Shown in pieces: positions 19,501 through 26,087 of a stretch of DNA of 35,514 nucleotides. The translations under genes and the position numbers were made by a program. Position 1 is the first letter of the stretch, and each line of letters starts with the position of its first letter. The notes under the pieces were generated by a model, which searched no databases, was not told where the DNA came from, and saw only the letters and a program-made list of their open reading frames with translations. The stretch is from Bacteroidota bacterium (GTDB lineage Bacteria; Bacteroidota; Bacteroidia; Palsa-948), in assembly GCA_016213435.1 (NCBI GenBank), contig JACRAL010000181.1:1-35514 (forward strand), written 5' to 3'.

Positions 19501-22500
19501 TTGAAAGTTAAAAACCTTATATCAAACTCCAAGAATTGGCAAGACTTCAAGTCTGCCATTGATATTGAAAACAACAAGGTTAAAGGAGATGCATTTGAGT
19601 TGTTGACCAAACTATATTTTCAAGTTAATCCTGAACATAAGAGTTTATATGAAGAGGTTTGGTTACTTTCTGAAGTACCTTCTAGTGTCCTAGAGTATTT
19701 GGAATTACCAGATCAGGATTTGGGGATTGACCTTATTGTTAAATCTGGAGAGGAATACCACGCCATTCAGTGCAAATACCATAGCGATATAACATCCTCG
19801 GTTACTTTTAAAGAAGTATCTACATTTTTATCGCTAATCGAAAGCAACAAGAAAATTTTACGAGGATATATTTGTTCAAGCGCTTTTGATACCTCTAAGA
19901 ACTTTCAGAAGTTAAAGACTAAGCCAATTAGCACATTGATGTCTGATGTATGGCAAAATCTTGATGAGGGCTTTTTCCTGCAAGCTCAAATGGTTTTAGA
20001 TGGAAAAGAAGTTAAGCTCACTCCTTCTCAGCCCCGAGAACATCAGAAGATAGCCATTGAAAAGGCTGTAAGGCATTTTGAAAATGAACATCACGCTAGA
20101 GGGAAACTTATATTCCCTTGTGGAGCAGGAAAAAGCCTTACAGGCTTCTGGATCGCTGAGCAACTGAAGTCAAAATCTACATTAGTAGCTGTTCCTAGTT
20201 TATTTCTGGTACAGCAAACGCTGGGGGTTTATCTAAAAGAAATAGTAGCAAATAATAGTAAAGTTAAATGGTTGTGTATTTGTTCGGATGAGGGCATAGG
20301 AAAGAATGATGATGTTGTTTTTAATACCGAGAACTTAGGAGTTCCTTGTCTAACGGACTCTAAATATATTGAGCAGTGGTTAATAAAGAATATGGATGAA
20401 AAGAAAATCATCTTTACTACCTATCAAAGTGGACGAATTATTGCAGAGATTTCGAAGAAGTTAAACTTCGCTTTTGATGTAGGAATATTTGATGAGGCAC
20501 ACAAAACCGTTGGTCCGGACAAGAAGCTTTTTTCCCATTTGTTATTTGAAGATACTATTTCAATAGCAAAGAGAATGTTTATGACTGCTACAGAGCGTTT
20601 TTATGTTGGTTCAAAGGATGATATTATTTCTATGGATAATGAAGGCATCTACGGGGAAACATTTGCTCAAATGAGCTTTAAAGAAGCTATAGAGTTGAAA
20701 CTTCTGACAAATTACAAAGTAATAACTATAGATGTAAAGAAATCAGAAATAGCAAAATTTATAAGGGATAATAATCTTGTACAGTTAAACGATAAGTGGA
20801 AAAAAGAAACTGAAGCTCGTTCATTAGCTTCAATGTTAGCTTTAAGAAAGGCAATGAAGCGATTAAATATTAAGAATGCAGTTTCATTTCATTCTTCTAT
20901 TGAGAAGGCTAGACGTAATAAGGATTTACAACAGTACATTACCAAAACCTACAATTATCAACCAATTGATACTTATACTGTAAGCGGGAAAGACAACATA
21001 GCTAAAAGAAATAATATCGTACAGGAGTTTGCGAACTCTGAAAAAGCTTTAATCACCAATGCTAGGTGCCTTTCAGAAGGTGTTGATGTGCCAAACATAG
21101 ATTGTATTGTATTTGCAGATCCTCGTAAAAGTAAAGTGGATATTGTTCAAGCATTAGGGAGGGCATTAAGAAAGAAAGTTGGAAAAGAATGGGGGTATGT
21201 AATATTACCTGTAATATATGATGAAGCTACTTCTGAAATTGACAATGACAATTTTAATGAAATAATAGATGTAGTAAGAGCTTTAGCTTCTAATGATGAA
21301 AGAGTAATTGCATATTTTAAGGACAAAGCTGAGGGTAACATTAATGCTAAAATAGAAAAACAATTAAGCGCTGAGTTTTTTTCCGATTATCTTAATGAAA
21401 CAGAATTAAAAAATAATCTTCAAATAAGAATCTGGAAGAAACTTTCTAAGTTTAATATGATGCCTTTTGAAGATGCGAGAAATTTCGTTAGGAAATTAGG
21501 GTTGAGCTCTTATAAAAATTGGTTTGCATATTGTGAGTCAGGTAAGAAGCCAGAGGATATTCCCTTTTCCCCTGCTTCCTACTACAATGGCAAAGGATGG
21601 ATAGATATGAGAGATTGGCTTGGGAATGAAAAAAGATCTTTTGAAGAAGCGAGGGATTTTGTTAGAAAGCTCAATTTTAAAAGTTCAACCGAATGGAAAG
21701 CGTATTGCGAGTCAGGTAAGAAGCCAGATGATATCCCATTTTCCCCTGCTTCTTACTACAAAGGTAAAGGATGGAAAGATATGAGAGATTGGATAGGTAA
21801 CGAACAAAGACCTTTTGAAGAAGCAAGAACTTTTGTAAGAAAATTAGGATTAAACTCACATAAAGGTTGGATAGAATATTGCAATTCAGGTGAGAAGCCA
21901 GATGATATACCTAATTTTCCGGCTTCATCATACAAAGGCAAAGGATGGATGGGTTTTAGTGACTGGATAGACAATGAATTTTTTCCATCAAGAGATAAGG
22001 AATATATGCCCTTTGAGGAAGCAAGAGCATTTGTTAGAAAGCTCAGTTTAAAAAGTTCAAACGAATGGTATACATATTGCAGATCAAGTGAGAAGCCAGA
22101 TGATATACCTACAGCGCCCCACGCCATCTACAAAGATAAAGGGTGGGTAGGTATGGAAGATTGGATTGGCAAGACAAATATTTTTTTGCCCGTGGTTAGG
22201 GAGTATCGACCTTTTGACGAAGCAAGAGCCTTTGTTAGAAAGCTCAATTTAAAAAGTTCAACCGAATGGTATGCATTTTGCAAGTCAGGAGAGAAACCAG
22301 ATGATATACCCACTGCGCCAGCAGTTCCATACAAAGATAAAGGGTGGACAGGTTTTGGAGACTGGCTTGGTAATTCGGAAAATTATTCACCGGTGGTTCG
22401 GGGGTATCGGTCTTTTGAAGAAGCGCGAGCCTTTGTTAGAAAACTTAATTTGAAAAATTCAACCGAATGGAACAAGTATTGCAAGTCAGGAGAAAAGCCA

Positions 22501-22980
22501 GATGAGATACCTACAGCACCACATTCTATATACAAAGATACAGGCTGGGTAGGTTTTAGGGACTGGATTGGAACAGGAAGTGTTAATGGAAGAGAGTATA
22601 GAATCTTTGAAGAAGCAAGGTGCTTTGTTAGAAAACTTAATTTGAAAAATTCAACAGAATGGTATACGTATTGCAAGTCAGGAGAGAAACCAGATGATAT
22701 ACCCACTGCGCCAGCAGTTCCATACAAAGATAAAGGATGGACAGGTTTTGGAGACTGGCTTGGCACAGGAAATATTATGAAACAATTTCGGGAGTGGAGA
22801 TCCTTTGAAGAAGCAAGAGCATTTGTTAGAAAGCTCAATTTAAAAAATTCAATAGAATGGAATCAGTATTGCAAGTCAGGAGAGAAACCAAATGACATAC
22901 CTTCAGCGCCAACTAGCAAATATAAAGACAAAGGATGGGAAAGTATGGAAGATTGGCTAGGTAATCCTCCATATTTATAG
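19501..22980 (+). CDS. Mrr-like nuclease / SF2 helicase fusion with eight C-terminal repeats (probable restriction or defence protein)
   Basis: This 1159-residue protein starts at TTG. An N-terminal PD-(D/E)xK nuclease shows Glu33 (GDAFE), Asp77 (GID) and Gln90-x-Lys92 (IQCKY), the Mrr arrangement. An SF2 helicase/translocase follows: Walker A PCGAGKS with Lys211, DEAH at 331-334, MTATER, and motif VI QALGRALR from 550. Residues 654-1159 are eight copies of a ~60-residue repeat, consensus FEEARAFVRKL, then W..YC.SGEKPDDIP, P...YK.KGW and DWLG. Similar repeats occur in some phage-integrase-like and algal or protist proteins and may bind DNA. No methyltransferase or specificity gene is adjacent. 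It looks richer in A/T and AGA codons than its neighbours and is flanked by imperfect direct repeats, suggesting transfer. Confidence 0.9.
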   Translation: MKVKNLISNSKNWQDFKSAIDIENNKVKGDAFELLTKLYFQVNPEHKSLYEEVWLLSEVPSSVLEYLELPDQDLGIDLIVKSGEEYHAIQCKYHSDITSSVTFKEVSTFLSLIESNKKILRGYICSSAFDTSKNFQKLKTKPISTLMSDVWQNLDEGFFLQAQMVLDGKEVKLTPSQPREHQKIAIEKAVRHFENEHHARGKLIFPCGAGKSLTGFWIAEQLKSKSTLVAVPSLFLVQQTLGVYLKEIVANNSKVKWLCICSDEGIGKNDDVVFNTENLGVPCLTDSKYIEQWLIKNMDEKKIIFTTYQSGRIIAEISKKLNFAFDVGIFDEAHKTVGPDKKLFSHLLFEDTISIAKRMFMTATERFYVGSKDDIISMDNEGIYGETFAQMSFKEAIELKLLTNYKVITIDVKKSEIAKFIRDNNLVQLNDKWKKETEARSLASMLALRKAMKRLNIKNAVSFHSSIEKARRNKDLQQYITKTYNYQPIDTYTVSGKDNIAKRNNIVQEFANSEKALITNARCLSEGVDVPNIDCIVFADPRKSKVDIVQALGRALRKKVGKEWGYVILPVIYDEATSEIDNDNFNEIIDVVRALASNDERVIAYFKDKAEGNINAKIEKQLSAEFFSDYLNETELKNNLQIRIWKKLSKFNMMPFEDARNFVRKLGLSSYKNWFAYCESGKKPEDIPFSPASYYNGKGWIDMRDWLGNEKRSFEEARDFVRKLNFKSSTEWKAYCESGKKPDDIPFSPASYYKGKGWKDMRDWIGNEQRPFEEARTFVRKLGLNSHKGWIEYCNSGEKPDDIPNFPASSYKGKGWMGFSDWIDNEFFPSRDKEYMPFEEARAFVRKLSLKSSNEWYTYCRSSEKPDDIPTAPHAIYKDKGWVGMEDWIGKTNIFLPVVREYRPFDEARAFVRKLNLKSSTEWYAFCKSGEKPDDIPTAPAVPYKDKGWTGFGDWLGNSENYSPVVRGYRSFEEARAFVRKLNLKNSTEWNKYCKSGEKPDEIPTAPHSIYKDTGWVGFRDWIGTGSVNGREYRIFEEARCFVRKLNLKNSTEWYTYCKSGEKPDDIPTAPAVPYKDKGWTGFGDWLGTGNIMKQFREWRSFEEARAFVRKLNLKNSIEWNQYCKSGEKPNDIPSAPTSKYKDKGWESMEDWLGNPPYL
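21460..22977 (+). repeat. eight tandem ~60-codon repeats in the helicase gene
   Basis: The repeats start at residues 654 and 713 and continue to the last, at 1101-1159. Spacers between DWLG and the next FEEAR vary (a few to about 13 residues). Copies five and seven share an identical stretch from SGEKPDDIP to GFGDWLG and are nearly identical in DNA, which points to recent duplication or gene conversion, while the first three are more diverged. Confidence 0.93.
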
Positions 22981-23153: not shown

Positions 23154-23501
23154 ATGTCAGTACCGCTTACATTCCGCAAGAATGGTTTCCCTTACACACG
23201 GGAAGCAAGCGATGTGCTCTATGCCGAATCGGCAGGGCAAAACTGCATACTGCATTTTGAAAACGGGGATACAGAATTTTACGGCTACCCTTTAAAGTTC
23301 TTTCATCAAAAAGTATGGAGCACCAATTTATTCAGGCGCTTGCACCGCTCTTACCTTGTAAAAATGAGCAAAGTGATCAGCCAGGTCTGGTTAAAAGCCA
23401 TTCTCTTCAATGGCAAAATTATTTCCCTCAGCCGCAAAGGCCATAAAAGGGTGAAAAAACATCTTTCCGGCATTATGCAATCAACTCCTGAAAAAGAGTA
23501 A
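23154..23501 (+). CDS. stand-alone LytTR DNA-binding regulator
   Basis: The 115-residue protein is almost entirely a LytTR domain. DVLYAESAGQNCILHFENGD is the usual first half, FRRLHRSYLVKMSKVISQV the conserved central strand and turn (R..HRSYLVN), and ISLSRKGHKRVKKHL the recognition end. No receiver domain or membrane sensor is fused, so its activity must be set by abundance or a partner. LytTR proteins bind pairs of ~9-bp direct repeats one or two helical turns apart, and three repeats with a 20-nt period begin 3 bp after its stop. Five small genes in the same direction follow, which it may control. Confidence 0.93.
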   Translation: MSVPLTFRKNGFPYTREASDVLYAESAGQNCILHFENGDTEFYGYPLKFFHQKVWSTNLFRRLHRSYLVKMSKVISQVWLKAILFNGKIISLSRKGHKRVKKHLSGIMQSTPEKE

Positions 23502-23504
23502 GCC

Positions 23505-23560
23505 ACCGCTGCTCAGGAGAAAACACCGCTGCTCGGGAGAATGTACCGCTGTTCGGGAGA
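23505..23560 (+). promoter_or_regulatory. three 16-nt direct repeats at 20-nt period, candidate LytTR sites
   Basis: ACCGCTGCTCAGGAGA (23505-23520), ACCGCTGCTCGGGAGA (23525-23540) and ACCGCTGTTCGGGAGA (23545-23560) differ at single positions and are separated by 4 nt. The near-two-turn spacing puts them on one face of the helix, as for LytTR targets. They lie between the LytTR gene and the first gene of the downstream cluster, whose ATG is 78 nt further on. Confidence 0.5.
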
Positions 23561-23637
23561 ACTGGCAAACATTGCACACATTCCCTCCGTTATATCCCAA
23601 AAACAAGCACACATTAATACAAACAAAAGAAACCTCA

Positions 23638-23955
23638 ATGAACCATTCAGAAACATATCCCCGAAACAATGCAATGCTGCTCCAAAGAAGTGTTGAAATG
23701 AACTCCTTCGGAGTAAACCCGCAAAGCGATTTTACAGTTTCAGCAAGCAGCGGATCAATGTTTCACAGGGGCTATACCATGTTTCACAGAGGTAGTTCAG
23801 TATTGAACAGGAGTAGTTCAAGGTTGCACAGGAGCTGCTCAAGATTGAATCAAAGCAGTTCAAGGTTGAACAGGAGTAGTTCAAGATTGAATCAAAGCAG
23901 TTCAAGGTTGAATCAAAGTAAAAAACAATTCAAAATAAACACTAACCCCCGATAA
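23638..23955 (+). CDS. Ser/Arg/Asn-rich heptad tandem-repeat protein
   Basis: From the ATG at 23638 the protein has 105 residues. After a ~37-residue leader (MNHSETYPRNNAMLLQRSVE) it consists of eight 7-residue units and a decayed ninth, moving from SGSMFHR and GYTMFHR through GSSVLNR to SSSRLNQ/SSSRLNR. The repeat is strongly basic and polar with one or two hydrophobic positions per unit, so it could form a fibre, a coiled or solenoid-like helix, or a nucleic-acid-binding tail. No signal peptide is seen. A longer reading from a TTG at 23572 is possible but less likely. It is the first gene of the cluster behind the LytTR regulator. I cannot assign a function. Confidence 0.7.
   Translation: MNHSETYPRNNAMLLQRSVEMNSFGVNPQSDFTVSASSGSMFHRGYTMFHRGSSVLNRSSSRLHRSCSRLNQSSSRLNRSSSRLNQSSSRLNQSKKQFKINTNPR
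23749..23937 (+). repeat. 21-bp tandem repeat within the heptad-repeat gene
   Basis: There are eight copies at exact 21-bp period (23749-23916) and a degenerate ninth (23917-23937). Units such as AGTAGTTCAAGATTGAATCA and AGCAGTTCAAGGTTGAACAG alternate, and the final ones are nearly identical, showing recent expansion. There are no spacers, so it is not a CRISPR array. Confidence 0.93.
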
Positions 23956-23963
23956 CTATCGGG
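23948..23963. repeat. CCCGAT/ATCGGG short palindrome between cluster genes
   Basis: Perfect 6-bp arms with a 4-nt AACT loop overlap the end of the heptad gene (stop at 23953-23955). The same TATCGGGA-type motif recurs at 26641-26658, so it belongs to a second, smaller dispersed palindrome family. It could attenuate transcription into the FN3 gene. Confidence 0.6.
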
Positions 23964-23979
23964 ATAAAACCTAAAAACA

Positions 23980-24618
23980 ATGTTACACATTATTGCAAAA
24001 CTCGGATTACGCAGCATCAGCGATGCCGGACTTGGCGATTACGCTCAAGACAAAATTGACAAGATCAATGCGGCTCCCGCATTCGCGGCAGTGGATCCAT
24101 CCACCGCCACGCTGCAAACAAAAACGGACGAGTACGAAAGCGCCCTTGTAAAATCCGACAACGGAACCGTTGCCGACACCGCGCTAAAAGACCAAAGGCG
24201 TGCGGAACTGGAAAACCTGCTCACCATTCAGGCGCAGAACTGCGCTGTAATTGCCAATGGTGATCTGCCTTTGTATTTAACCACCGGCTATGGCGCCAGG
24301 GATACCAAGGGCAGCCCAACAGGACATTTGCCCGCAGTTACCGGCTTGAATTTGTTTTATGGAAACAGCCCGGCAGAACTTGAGGCAAGCTGGGATGTGA
24401 TGGAAGATGCCCAAAACTTTACCGTGCAGGTTTATACCGACATAGCCAACCCCGATGGCTCTAAGATAAAAGAGTACATGAAACCAAAGATCGGTAAAAA
24501 GAAAACAACGCTCGATGGATTGCCTTCGGGGCAGATGGTATTTGTGCGTGTACGTGCCAATGGTGGCAGCACCGGCTTTGGTCCATGGAGCGATGTGGCG
24601 GAGAAGAGAGTGCCGTAA
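23980..24618 (+). CDS. fibronectin type III-domain protein with helical N-terminal region (copy 1)
   Basis: The protein has 212 residues. Residues 1-31 form a short module (LHIIAKLGLRSISDAGLGDY then QDKIDKINA) shared with the small acidic protein at 24682. Residues ~43-104 are mainly helical (KTDEYESALVKSDNGTVADT, QRRAELENLLTIQAQN, ANGDLPLYLTTGYGA). Residues ~117-212 are an FN3 domain: ELEASWDVMEDAQNFTVQVY, LDGLPSGQMVFVRVRANGG, GPWSDVAEKRVP. I recall this helical-plus-FN3 layout from unassigned Bacteroidota proteins. There is no signal peptide, which is unusual for FN3 proteins and fits an intracellular or phage-like structural role. A paralogue lies at 25542. Confidence 0.83.
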   Translation: MLHIIAKLGLRSISDAGLGDYAQDKIDKINAAPAFAAVDPSTATLQTKTDEYESALVKSDNGTVADTALKDQRRAELENLLTIQAQNCAVIANGDLPLYLTTGYGARDTKGSPTGHLPAVTGLNLFYGNSPAELEASWDVMEDAQNFTVQVYTDIANPDGSKIKEYMKPKIGKKKTTLDGLPSGQMVFVRVRANGGSTGFGPWSDVAEKRVP

Positions 24619-24681
24619 ATCAACGAAAAGCAAAACTGTACGAAAAATACGAAACAAAAAAAATCCTTAATCCTAAATAAA

Positions 24682-24870
24682 ATGTCTGCTCCAAATATGC
24701 ACCCCATCATTCCGAAATTAGAACTGCACAAACTGCACGATGATGAATTGGATGAATACACGCAGGAGAAGATCAATAAAATAAATGCGGTGAATGCAGA
24801 GGAAGATACGATGCTGTATGAAGATGGAGAAGAAATGCTTTTTGAAAATAATGAAATGATGATGTATTAA
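24682..24870 (+). CDS. small acidic protein sharing a module with the upstream FN3 protein
   Basis: This 62-residue protein would be doubtful on length alone, but its residues 8-36 (HPIIPKLELHKLHDDELDEY then TQEKINKINAVNA) align with residues 3-31 of the 212-residue FN3 protein. It has the same orientation and cluster. The second half is an acidic, Met-rich tail (LYEDGEEMLFENNEMMMY). It may be the shared docking module on its own. Function is unknown. Confidence 0.7.
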   Translation: MSAPNMHPIIPKLELHKLHDDELDEYTQEKINKINAVNAEEDTMLYEDGEEMLFENNEMMMY

Positions 24871-24876
24871 CTAAAG

Positions 24877-24960
24877 CCCCACCCCCGCCCTCCCCATTAG
24901 GGAGGGAGAAAAAAATACAAGTCCTCCCCAATGGGGAGGATTTAGGAGGGGCACGGGGAA
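24877..24960. repeat. composite palindromic repeat, intergenic copy 1
   Basis: Hairpin one is CCCTCCC (24888-24894) / GGGAGGG (24900-24906). Hairpin two is TCCTCCCC (24922-24929) / GGGGAGGA (24933-24940). Outer arms GCCCCACCC...GGAGGGGC can close the whole unit. This is a well-preserved copy of the repeat also found inside metG. Confidence 0.9.
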
Positions 24961-24974
24961 AAAACACAAACACC

Positions 24975-25433
24975 ATGGCAAAGAAATGGTCAGAAAAAAC
25001 AGAGAAGGCAACAGTGGTTGCCAATGATGAACTACTCATCCTGGACAGCGAGGATGCCAATGCAGCAACAAAAAACAAACGGGTGAAAGCAAGCTTGCTC
25101 CTTCCTCCCTATAAAAAATATGTAGCGCTGCTCACGCAGACTGGAACCAATCCGCCCACAGCCATTGTGCTGGAAAACACCATTGGCAATATAGTGTGGA
25201 CATACCTTTCCACAGGAAGTTATACCGCAACACTTGCCAACGGATTTACCGGCAATGTATGGGCGATCATAGGAACCAAAGGAGTGGAAGCCGGTCCGCC
25301 TCAGCCCATTGCTTTTGCCAACCTGTATAAATACAGCAACAGCGAAGCGGTGCTCCGCACCTACAATCAGCAAAATCAAATCAACAACGATTTGCTTTGG
25401 AAAACAGCTATAGAAATAAGAGTGTATGCGTAA
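24975..25433 (+). CDS. small protein resembling Bacteroidota phage tail/appendage domains
   Basis: The 152-residue protein has two parts. Residues 1-45 (TVVANDELLILDSEDANAATKNKRVKASLL) resemble the opening of many phage and prophage fibre-like proteins (a list of 'data' then 'NKRI..S.L'). Residues ~48-152 start YKKYVALLTQTGTNPPTAIV, continue LENTIGNIVWTYLSTGSYTA and end AIEIRVYA. I recognise this beta-rich pattern from hypothetical and phage-structural proteins of Bacteroidota. There is no signal peptide. It sits between two FN3 paralogues, inside flanking palindromic repeats. Its role is inferred only from resemblance. Confidence 0.72.
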   Translation: MAKKWSEKTEKATVVANDELLILDSEDANAATKNKRVKASLLLPPYKKYVALLTQTGTNPPTAIVLENTIGNIVWTYLSTGSYTATLANGFTGNVWAIIGTKGVEAGPPQPIAFANLYKYSNSEAVLRTYNQQNQINNDLLWKTAIEIRVYA

Positions 25434-25516
25434 ACCACCCCCTCTCTTATCTCCCCCAAAGGGGGAGAAGCTTACGCGTGAAAGTCCTCCCCTTTGGGGA
25501 GGATTTAGGTGGGGTG
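25434..25516. repeat. composite palindromic repeat, intergenic copy 2
   Basis: Hairpin one is CTCCCCC/GGGGGAG (25451-25467, loop AAA). Hairpin two is TCCTCCCC (25485-25492) / GGGGAGGA (25496-25503). Outer arms CCACCCC and GGTGGGG lie at the two ends. The layout is the same as at 24877-24960, and together they bracket the 152-residue gene. Confidence 0.9.
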
Positions 25517-25541
25517 TGAATAGTAACTAACCTTCAACACC

Positions 25542-26087
25542 ATGGGAACATTTTCAAACCTACAACCCGGCACAGCCGAGCTGGATGCTAAAAACCAGCA
25601 GTGGCGCGCTGCGCTTGCTAAAGCCAATGACGGCAGTAAAGCAGACACCGCCTACAAAAATCAGGTACGTGCAGAACTGGAAGCTATGCTCACCCTTCAG
25701 GCGCAAAACTGCGCTGAGATTGCCAATGGCGATTTGGTTTTGTATCTCAGAACAGGATATGAAGCAAAAAACACGCAGGGATCACCCACCCCGATGCTCG
25801 GGGCAGTAACCGGATTAGAATTATTTTATGGCGACAGTGATGGAGAGCTCAAAGCAATGTGGAACCCTATTGAAGATGCCCAAAACTTTACTGTGCATGC
25901 GTATTCCGACATCAGTAATCCGGAAGGTACCCTCATTAAGGAATACCTCATCAAAAAAATCGGCAAGCAGAAAATAATTCTCAGCGGGCTGCCCAGCGGG
26001 CAAAAAATATTTGTGCGTGTTCGTGCCAATGGTGGCAGCACAGGTCATAGTCCTTGGAGTGACCCCGCAGAAAAAAGAGTGCCGTAA
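25542..26087 (+). CDS. fibronectin type III-domain protein with helical N-terminal region (copy 2)
   Basis: The 181-residue protein is a paralogue of the 212-residue one. The helical part is similar (QQWRAALAKANDGSKADTAY, QVRAELEAMLTLQAQN, ANGDLVLYLRTGYEA), as is the FN3 domain (LKAMWNPIEDAQNFTVHAYS, LSGLPSGQKIFVRVRANGG, PWSDPAEKRVP). It lacks the first ~30-residue module and begins MGTFSNLQPGTAELDAK instead. The two copies have diverged most in the N-terminus and in FN3 loops. It is the last gene of the LytTR-linked cluster; the next gene is on the other strand. Confidence 0.83.
   Translation: MGTFSNLQPGTAELDAKNQQWRAALAKANDGSKADTAYKNQVRAELEAMLTLQAQNCAEIANGDLVLYLRTGYEAKNTQGSPTPMLGAVTGLELFYGDSDGELKAMWNPIEDAQNFTVHAYSDISNPEGTLIKEYLIKKIGKQKIILSGLPSGQKIFVRVRANGGSTGHSPWSDPAEKRVP

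Follow-up and report, generated by a model that had tools for sequence, protein, structure and literature searches.

Tandem arrays with a period of two helical turns upstream of a many-copy helical/FN3 gene family in Bacteroidota

The window analyzed here is a stretch of 35,514 nucleotides, corresponding to contig C131 in a draft genome of 3.7 Mb that its genes and relatives place in the Bacteroidota. It carries a tandem array of about eight 21-bp units in front of a gene for a small protein with a helical bundle and an FN3 domain. Tandem Repeats Finder (TRF) reports the array at 23792–23918; it is recognizable from about 23756 and spans 23756–23923, with no strand assigned and its units alternating in a 42-bp super-unit. 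An earlier note on this DNA missed the general feature, which is that such arrays recur upstream of the same gene family in many genera and also outside the class. The arrays are associated with helical/FN3 genes, keep a spacing of two turns of the DNA helix, give no coding signal as a class and contain dyad symmetries in register with their period. We give an even chance to the reading that the 21-bp array does not code for protein but acts in cis, as an element belonging to the helical/FN3 gene behind it, and that such arrays serve as private, phased operators.

Association of the arrays with the helical/FN3 family

The first FN3 protein of the window (212 residues, leaderless, 23980–24618, forward strand) is modeled by AlphaFold with a predicted local distance difference test (pLDDT) score of 89 as a helical bundle (residues ~15–100) followed by an FN3 sandwich, and Foldseek matched it to FN3 domains in the PDB with a best E value of 1.9e-6. 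The second (181 residues, 25542–26087, forward strand) lacks the N-terminal module and is 64% identical to the first. The earlier note had named both as FN3 proteins and as paralogues of each other; the paralogy holds, and the fold is backed by the model and the structure search for the first of the two. Neither protein has a match above cut-off in Pfam or NCBIfam, the Pfam FN3 families included. A profile built from 16 diverse helical/FN3 proteins detected the family (E of 1e-8) in 68 of the 395 genomes of this Bacteroidota class, and in this genome alone it gave 14 matches at an E of 0.001, two of them weak. The close subfamily is much rarer, as a scan of a genome collection with the core FN3 alignment found it in only one other metagenome-assembled genome. 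Members of the helical/FN3 family are small, leaderless proteins present in many copies, and their genes are mostly scattered singly.

TRF applied to the family genes revealed upstream arrays with periods of 20–22 bp or multiples of these, holding 6 to 24 copies each. As a measure independent of TRF, we took the best self-match lag (range 12–40) in the 800 bp before each gene. A lag of 20–22 was best upstream of 69 of 96 family genes (59 at 21, six at 22 and four at 20) but downstream of only 3 of 99 (Fisher p of 3.6e-26), and counted by genome the arrays were upstream in 38 of 45 and downstream in 2 of 46. A phylum-wide draw yielded four new family loci, of which three belong to genomes from beyond the class, and 21-bp arrays were present at all of them (4/4). 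The arrays are not assembly artefacts, since they also stand at all three family genes tested in the single-contig genome G156. Such arrays also occur away from the FN3 family: in about 240 kb of background, sampled as stretches of this genome together with the window, there were three, two of them in front of helical/Ig genes and the third between two genes for secreted proteins.

Helical and Ig-like genes of another family, at L015 (C208), L219 (C160) and L221 (C37), have upstream arrays with periods of 41, 41 and 42 bp, respectively. At L218 (1009–1215) a 42-bp-period array lies between two secreted-type genes with no helical/FN3 gene adjoining. Two FN3-family genes of genome G006, L102 and L195, have the 21-bp array downstream and not upstream.

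Coding capacity, sequence and symmetry of the units

The frame that crosses the window array (23638–23955, forward strand) had been taken in the earlier note for the gene of a Ser/Arg heptad-repeat protein. It is indeed open for 106 codons, mismatches between units of the window array have a codon-like distribution (0.29/0.11/0.44 at positions 1/2/3), and four homologous LytTR loci hold a frame open from a similar start. However, this stretch is homologous among the LytTR loci, so that shared descent is the simpler explanation of the shared start, and the class as a whole has no codon phase. Array periods are 20, 21 or 22 bp, and 41 bp on C208 and C160, which suggests that the spacing follows the helix and not the codons; the 41-bp period of C208 shifts the frame at each unit. 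Among 60 arrays, 32 had an open frame on the sense strand and 37 on the antisense strand, many had stops in all frames, and in the open sense frames the share of inter-unit mismatches at codon position 3 was 0.328, as by chance. Two arrays precede a paralogous FN3 gene on C37, and the one with a window-like unit has the opposite orientation and is interrupted by stops; this opposite-strand array and the period of C208 pointed to an element of the DNA and not to a protein. Heptad coding was rejected for the array class because of the periods that are not multiples of three, the stops and the position-3 share. That the array is a heptad-repeat gene is thus very improbable, and the frame 23638–23955 is probably not a gene.

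The sequence of the unit changes from array to array. Unit consensuses of random array pairs match at a mean of 9.9 of 21 positions, related pairs at 59–85% protein identity still have mostly 9–11 matches of 21, with a few at 15–16, and an orthologue pair at 98% protein identity has kept the unit in full (21/21). No motif common to the arrays was seen by eye. Within units there is no half-period (10–11 bp) similarity and there is no strand composition bias worth noting in the arrays, and the two halves of a unit are unequally conserved to a weak degree (9 of 44 arrays at p < 0.05, combined p of 8e-5). The fast turnover of array sequence, and a copy number that differs between the near-identical orthologues L151 and L153, would suit minisatellites that expand by slippage and are tolerated or used for phase variation, their spacing being set by expansion. 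Slippage alone, however, predicts neither the 20–22-bp period nor a restriction to one gene family, and neither the one-sided placement nor the in-register dyads, so we consider minisatellites an improbable account of the arrays.

Scored on the real units, dyad symmetry in register with the period was found in 27 of 63 arrays at P ≤ 0.05 (combined p of 4e-15), and artificial arrays built from neighboring DNA gave a null result (8 of 126). The arrays also fold better than their column-permuted versions, with z of −1.29 for the sense strand and −1.37 for the antisense strand, and +0.22 for the control. Such self-complementarity could mean that the array acts in the transcript, as a repetitive, self-pairing 5′ leader that controls the translation or stability of the FN3 mRNA. 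A leader would agree with two observations: about ten arrays end 90 bp or less from the ATG, and the arrays of the LytTR loci stand behind the LytTR sites. Yet both strands fold equally well, which gives no hint that selection has favored either one as RNA; there is no Rfam match, and a constant spacing of 20–22 bp is not expected of RNA hairpins. A leader RNA appears unlikely to us, though still a reading to be reckoned with.

If the arrays are operators, each would line up operator-like sites along the same face of the helix, a regulator that is a dimer or an oligomer would bind these sites cooperatively, and each gene copy would thereby have its own switch-like control element. In the window, the LytTR protein would probably act at its own three 20-bp sites (23504–23561) and control the operon, and the 21-bp array may add a second layer of control, recognized either by an unlinked factor or by LytTR itself in a different binding mode. 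Some arrays do adjoin genes for regulators, either LytTR, a LuxR-type response regulator or a Cro/C1-type helix-turn-helix protein. We infer the binding of the arrays, its cooperativity and its effect on transcription; an operator array is the most economical mechanism and looks like a new type of private on/off switch.

Several observations weigh against operators. The main weakness is that the Bacteroidota promoter motif allowed no promoter to be placed relative to the arrays, which leaves a transcribed leader element some of its probability. Some arrays end less than 100 bp from the ATG, and those of the LytTR loci lie downstream of the LytTR sites and so may be transcribed. Most arrays have no adjacent regulator gene. 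A simpler dyad test on the merged unit consensus was negative, and the window array taken alone has no significant dyad (P of 0.098). The family genes counted are, moreover, partly non-independent, with several from the same genome and a few orthologues among them, a concern that the count by genome answers in part.

Beyond the function of single arrays, we advance tentatively, as somewhat short of an even chance, that they represent a new class of Bacteroidota cis elements in which two-turn spacing is conserved and sequence is free. Each gene copy would have a private array, re-seeded after duplication, and paralogues would be addressed separately.

The LytTR locus and its neighbors

The lone LytTR regulator reported in the earlier note is a stand-alone DNA-binding protein of 115 residues (23154–23501, forward strand) whose PF04397 domain scores 35.4 bits against a Pfam cut-off of 22.6 (E of 1.3e-8). 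Its close relatives were found in this genus only. Behind the gene lie the three helically phased repeats of the same note, confirmed here as direct repeats at 23504–23561 (forward strand, TRF period of 20) with the core GCTGYTCNNGAGAA. The exact core occurs six times in the genome, three times at the window locus and once at the LytTR locus on C208. DNA 3′ of the LytTR gene can be aligned among four loci of the genus and repeats like GCTGYTCNNGAGAA are present in all four. Sites of LytTR-type regulators consist of 9–11-nucleotide repeats with spacers of 11–13 nucleotides (PMC4847170), a geometry that the 20-bp repeats fit, and the three repeats are probably LytTR sites, with binding inferred.

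Five LytTR loci are fully visible (C131 and C208 of this genome, C16 and C60 of G006 and C59 of G001), one locus cut by a contig end and another with a truncated LytTR copy having been left out. In all five the order is LytTR gene, array, and helical or beta-sandwich gene, although the array of G001 C59 is degenerate with a lag-21 identity of 0.49. The paralogous locus on C208 has the layout of the window with an array period of 41 bp. G006 C16 adjoins the same OmpA-family gene as the window, and it is therefore probably the same locus with different cargo. The truncated LytTR copy, at L004 (C92), still has the beginning of the gene, with a similar region upstream of it, and is probably a pseudogene.

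Between the two FN3 genes of the window lie two further genes on the forward strand. The first is a small acidic open reading frame of 62 residues (24682–24870), which joins the N-terminal module of the FN3 protein, IIPKLELHKLHDDELDEYTQEKINKIN, to an acidic MLYEDGEEMLFE tail, so that the shared module noticed earlier is borne out by a comparison made by eye. The second encodes a beta-rich protein of 152 residues (24975–25433), named IEIRVY here. None of the cluster proteins has an obvious signal peptide, in agreement with the earlier note, again by eye. The cluster itself stands, and its fifth supposed gene, the frame across the array, is probably a DNA array; the link to LytTR holds within the genus, at the five loci, and the fixed set of five proteins does not. 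The idea that these proteins work together as a set finds no backing: the five-gene set is not conserved, close relatives of LytTR were found in this genus alone, those of IEIRVY in 4 of 149 genomes and the close FN3 subfamily in one other metagenome-assembled genome, and one of the five is probably no gene. Searches of the cluster for defense systems and against Rfam gave no matches.

The earlier note had further suggested a phage-derived structural assembly, a fiber or particle, under LytTR control. Its phage-appendage-like protein is confirmed in kind: IEIRVY has relatives on 42 IMG/VR contigs and in 76 phage records, and a fold search, with a model of mean pLDDT only 73, points to phage tail-fiber and structural proteins. 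FN3 domains, too, occur in phage tail proteins. In contrast, we found by eye no tube, sheath, baseplate or capsid gene among the open reading frames of the window, the flanks of the cluster are ordinary chromosomal genes with no structural phage module around them, and only IEIRVY is phage-like. The FN3 protein has no IMG/VR relative at the search sensitivity used, PHROG matches of the FN3 proteins are no better than 0.02, and the family consists mostly of dispersed single genes. With no prophage around the cluster, a phage-derived assembly is scarcely probable at all. Such arrays are absent from the phage contigs that carry relatives of IEIRVY; the 485 kb of these contigs contain one short 21-bp repeat, of Lys/Glu/Ala type, which is probably coding.

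Relatives of IEIRVY were found in 4 of 149 genomes. One paralogue, at L246 (G000:C90), is 59% identical and is preceded by short 21-bp GGGGGAGAAAGATTAAACTTC repeats; the helical protein before it ends in a MLYED acidic tail, as does the small open reading frame of the window. From these repeats and this neighbor, IEIRVY seems to have been drawn into the helical/array gene group. GC-rich palindromes that resemble repetitive extragenic palindromic sequences flank the IEIRVY gene on both sides (24879–24960 and 25434–25520), which would fit a gene that moved in between dispersed repeats.

Two other features of the window were recorded. A palindrome, CCCGATA..TATCGGG, at 23950–23966 directly precedes the start of the first FN3 gene and recurs on C137 and C16 in front of other start codons. 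Upstream of the LytTR gene, positions 19501–22980 (forward strand) encode a helicase/nuclease with ResIII, Mrr_cat_2 and Helicase_C domains, classified by PADLOC as type IIG-like over its N-terminal half. It carries about nine C-terminal repeats of ~58–67 residues each (FEEARAFVRKLxLKSSTEWxxYCKSGEKPDDIPxAP...KGW).

Significance and comparison with known repeat systems

If the arrays are operators, they would give a readable regulatory signature to an uncharacterized many-copy family of Bacteroidota. Such a signature could guide the search for the binder, help in annotating the family and raise the question of why each member should need an address of its own. The arrays would also offer a natural test of the extent to which control by DNA can depend on helical phase as the sequence itself drifts. 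Should they prove not to be operators, the uniform spacing of 20–22 bp would still call for an explanation.

We found no description of such arrays in the open literature, the subscription literature being mostly outside the search. Plasmid iterons are tandem direct repeats of ~17–22 bp that are cooperatively bound and lie at replication origins beside the Rep gene. The arrays resemble them as tandem direct repeats of comparable length, whereas they precede a dispersed chromosomal gene family; no replication initiator was among the 25 of 75 Pfam families listed for 66 upstream neighbors, which does not bear out an iteron identity.

TAACTGA repeats form intergenic arrays upstream of start codons, in some Bacteroidetes as well (PMC4679880), and in being intergenic direct-repeat arrays before gene starts they are like those described here. 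They differ in that their 7-bp sequence is fixed and the genes behind them share no function, as opposed to 20–22 bp, no fixed sequence and one family behind most of the arrays examined. Identity with the TAACTGA heptamer was ruled out for the window, whose unit is 21 bp with a different sequence. At BldC operators, direct repeats follow one another in varying number over a stretch of DNA, and BldC binds them as cooperative multimers (PMC5859096). The likeness lies in the variable number of direct repeats; BldC repeats, however, are spaced by about one helical turn and share one consensus, whereas the arrays have two turns, no shared sequence, and dyads. LytTR sites, such as those of YpdB (PMC4847170), come close in that their repeats are about two helical turns apart with no consensus common to all regulators, and in this genus a LytTR gene is adjacent. 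Known LytTR sites, in contrast, are paired, whereas the arrays have 6–24 copies, mostly stand without an adjacent LytTR gene and change their unit from gene to gene. Tandem operators, iterons and BldC-type repeats are thus kinds already known, and the stronger new claim would be that of an element in which spacing is conserved and sequence is free.

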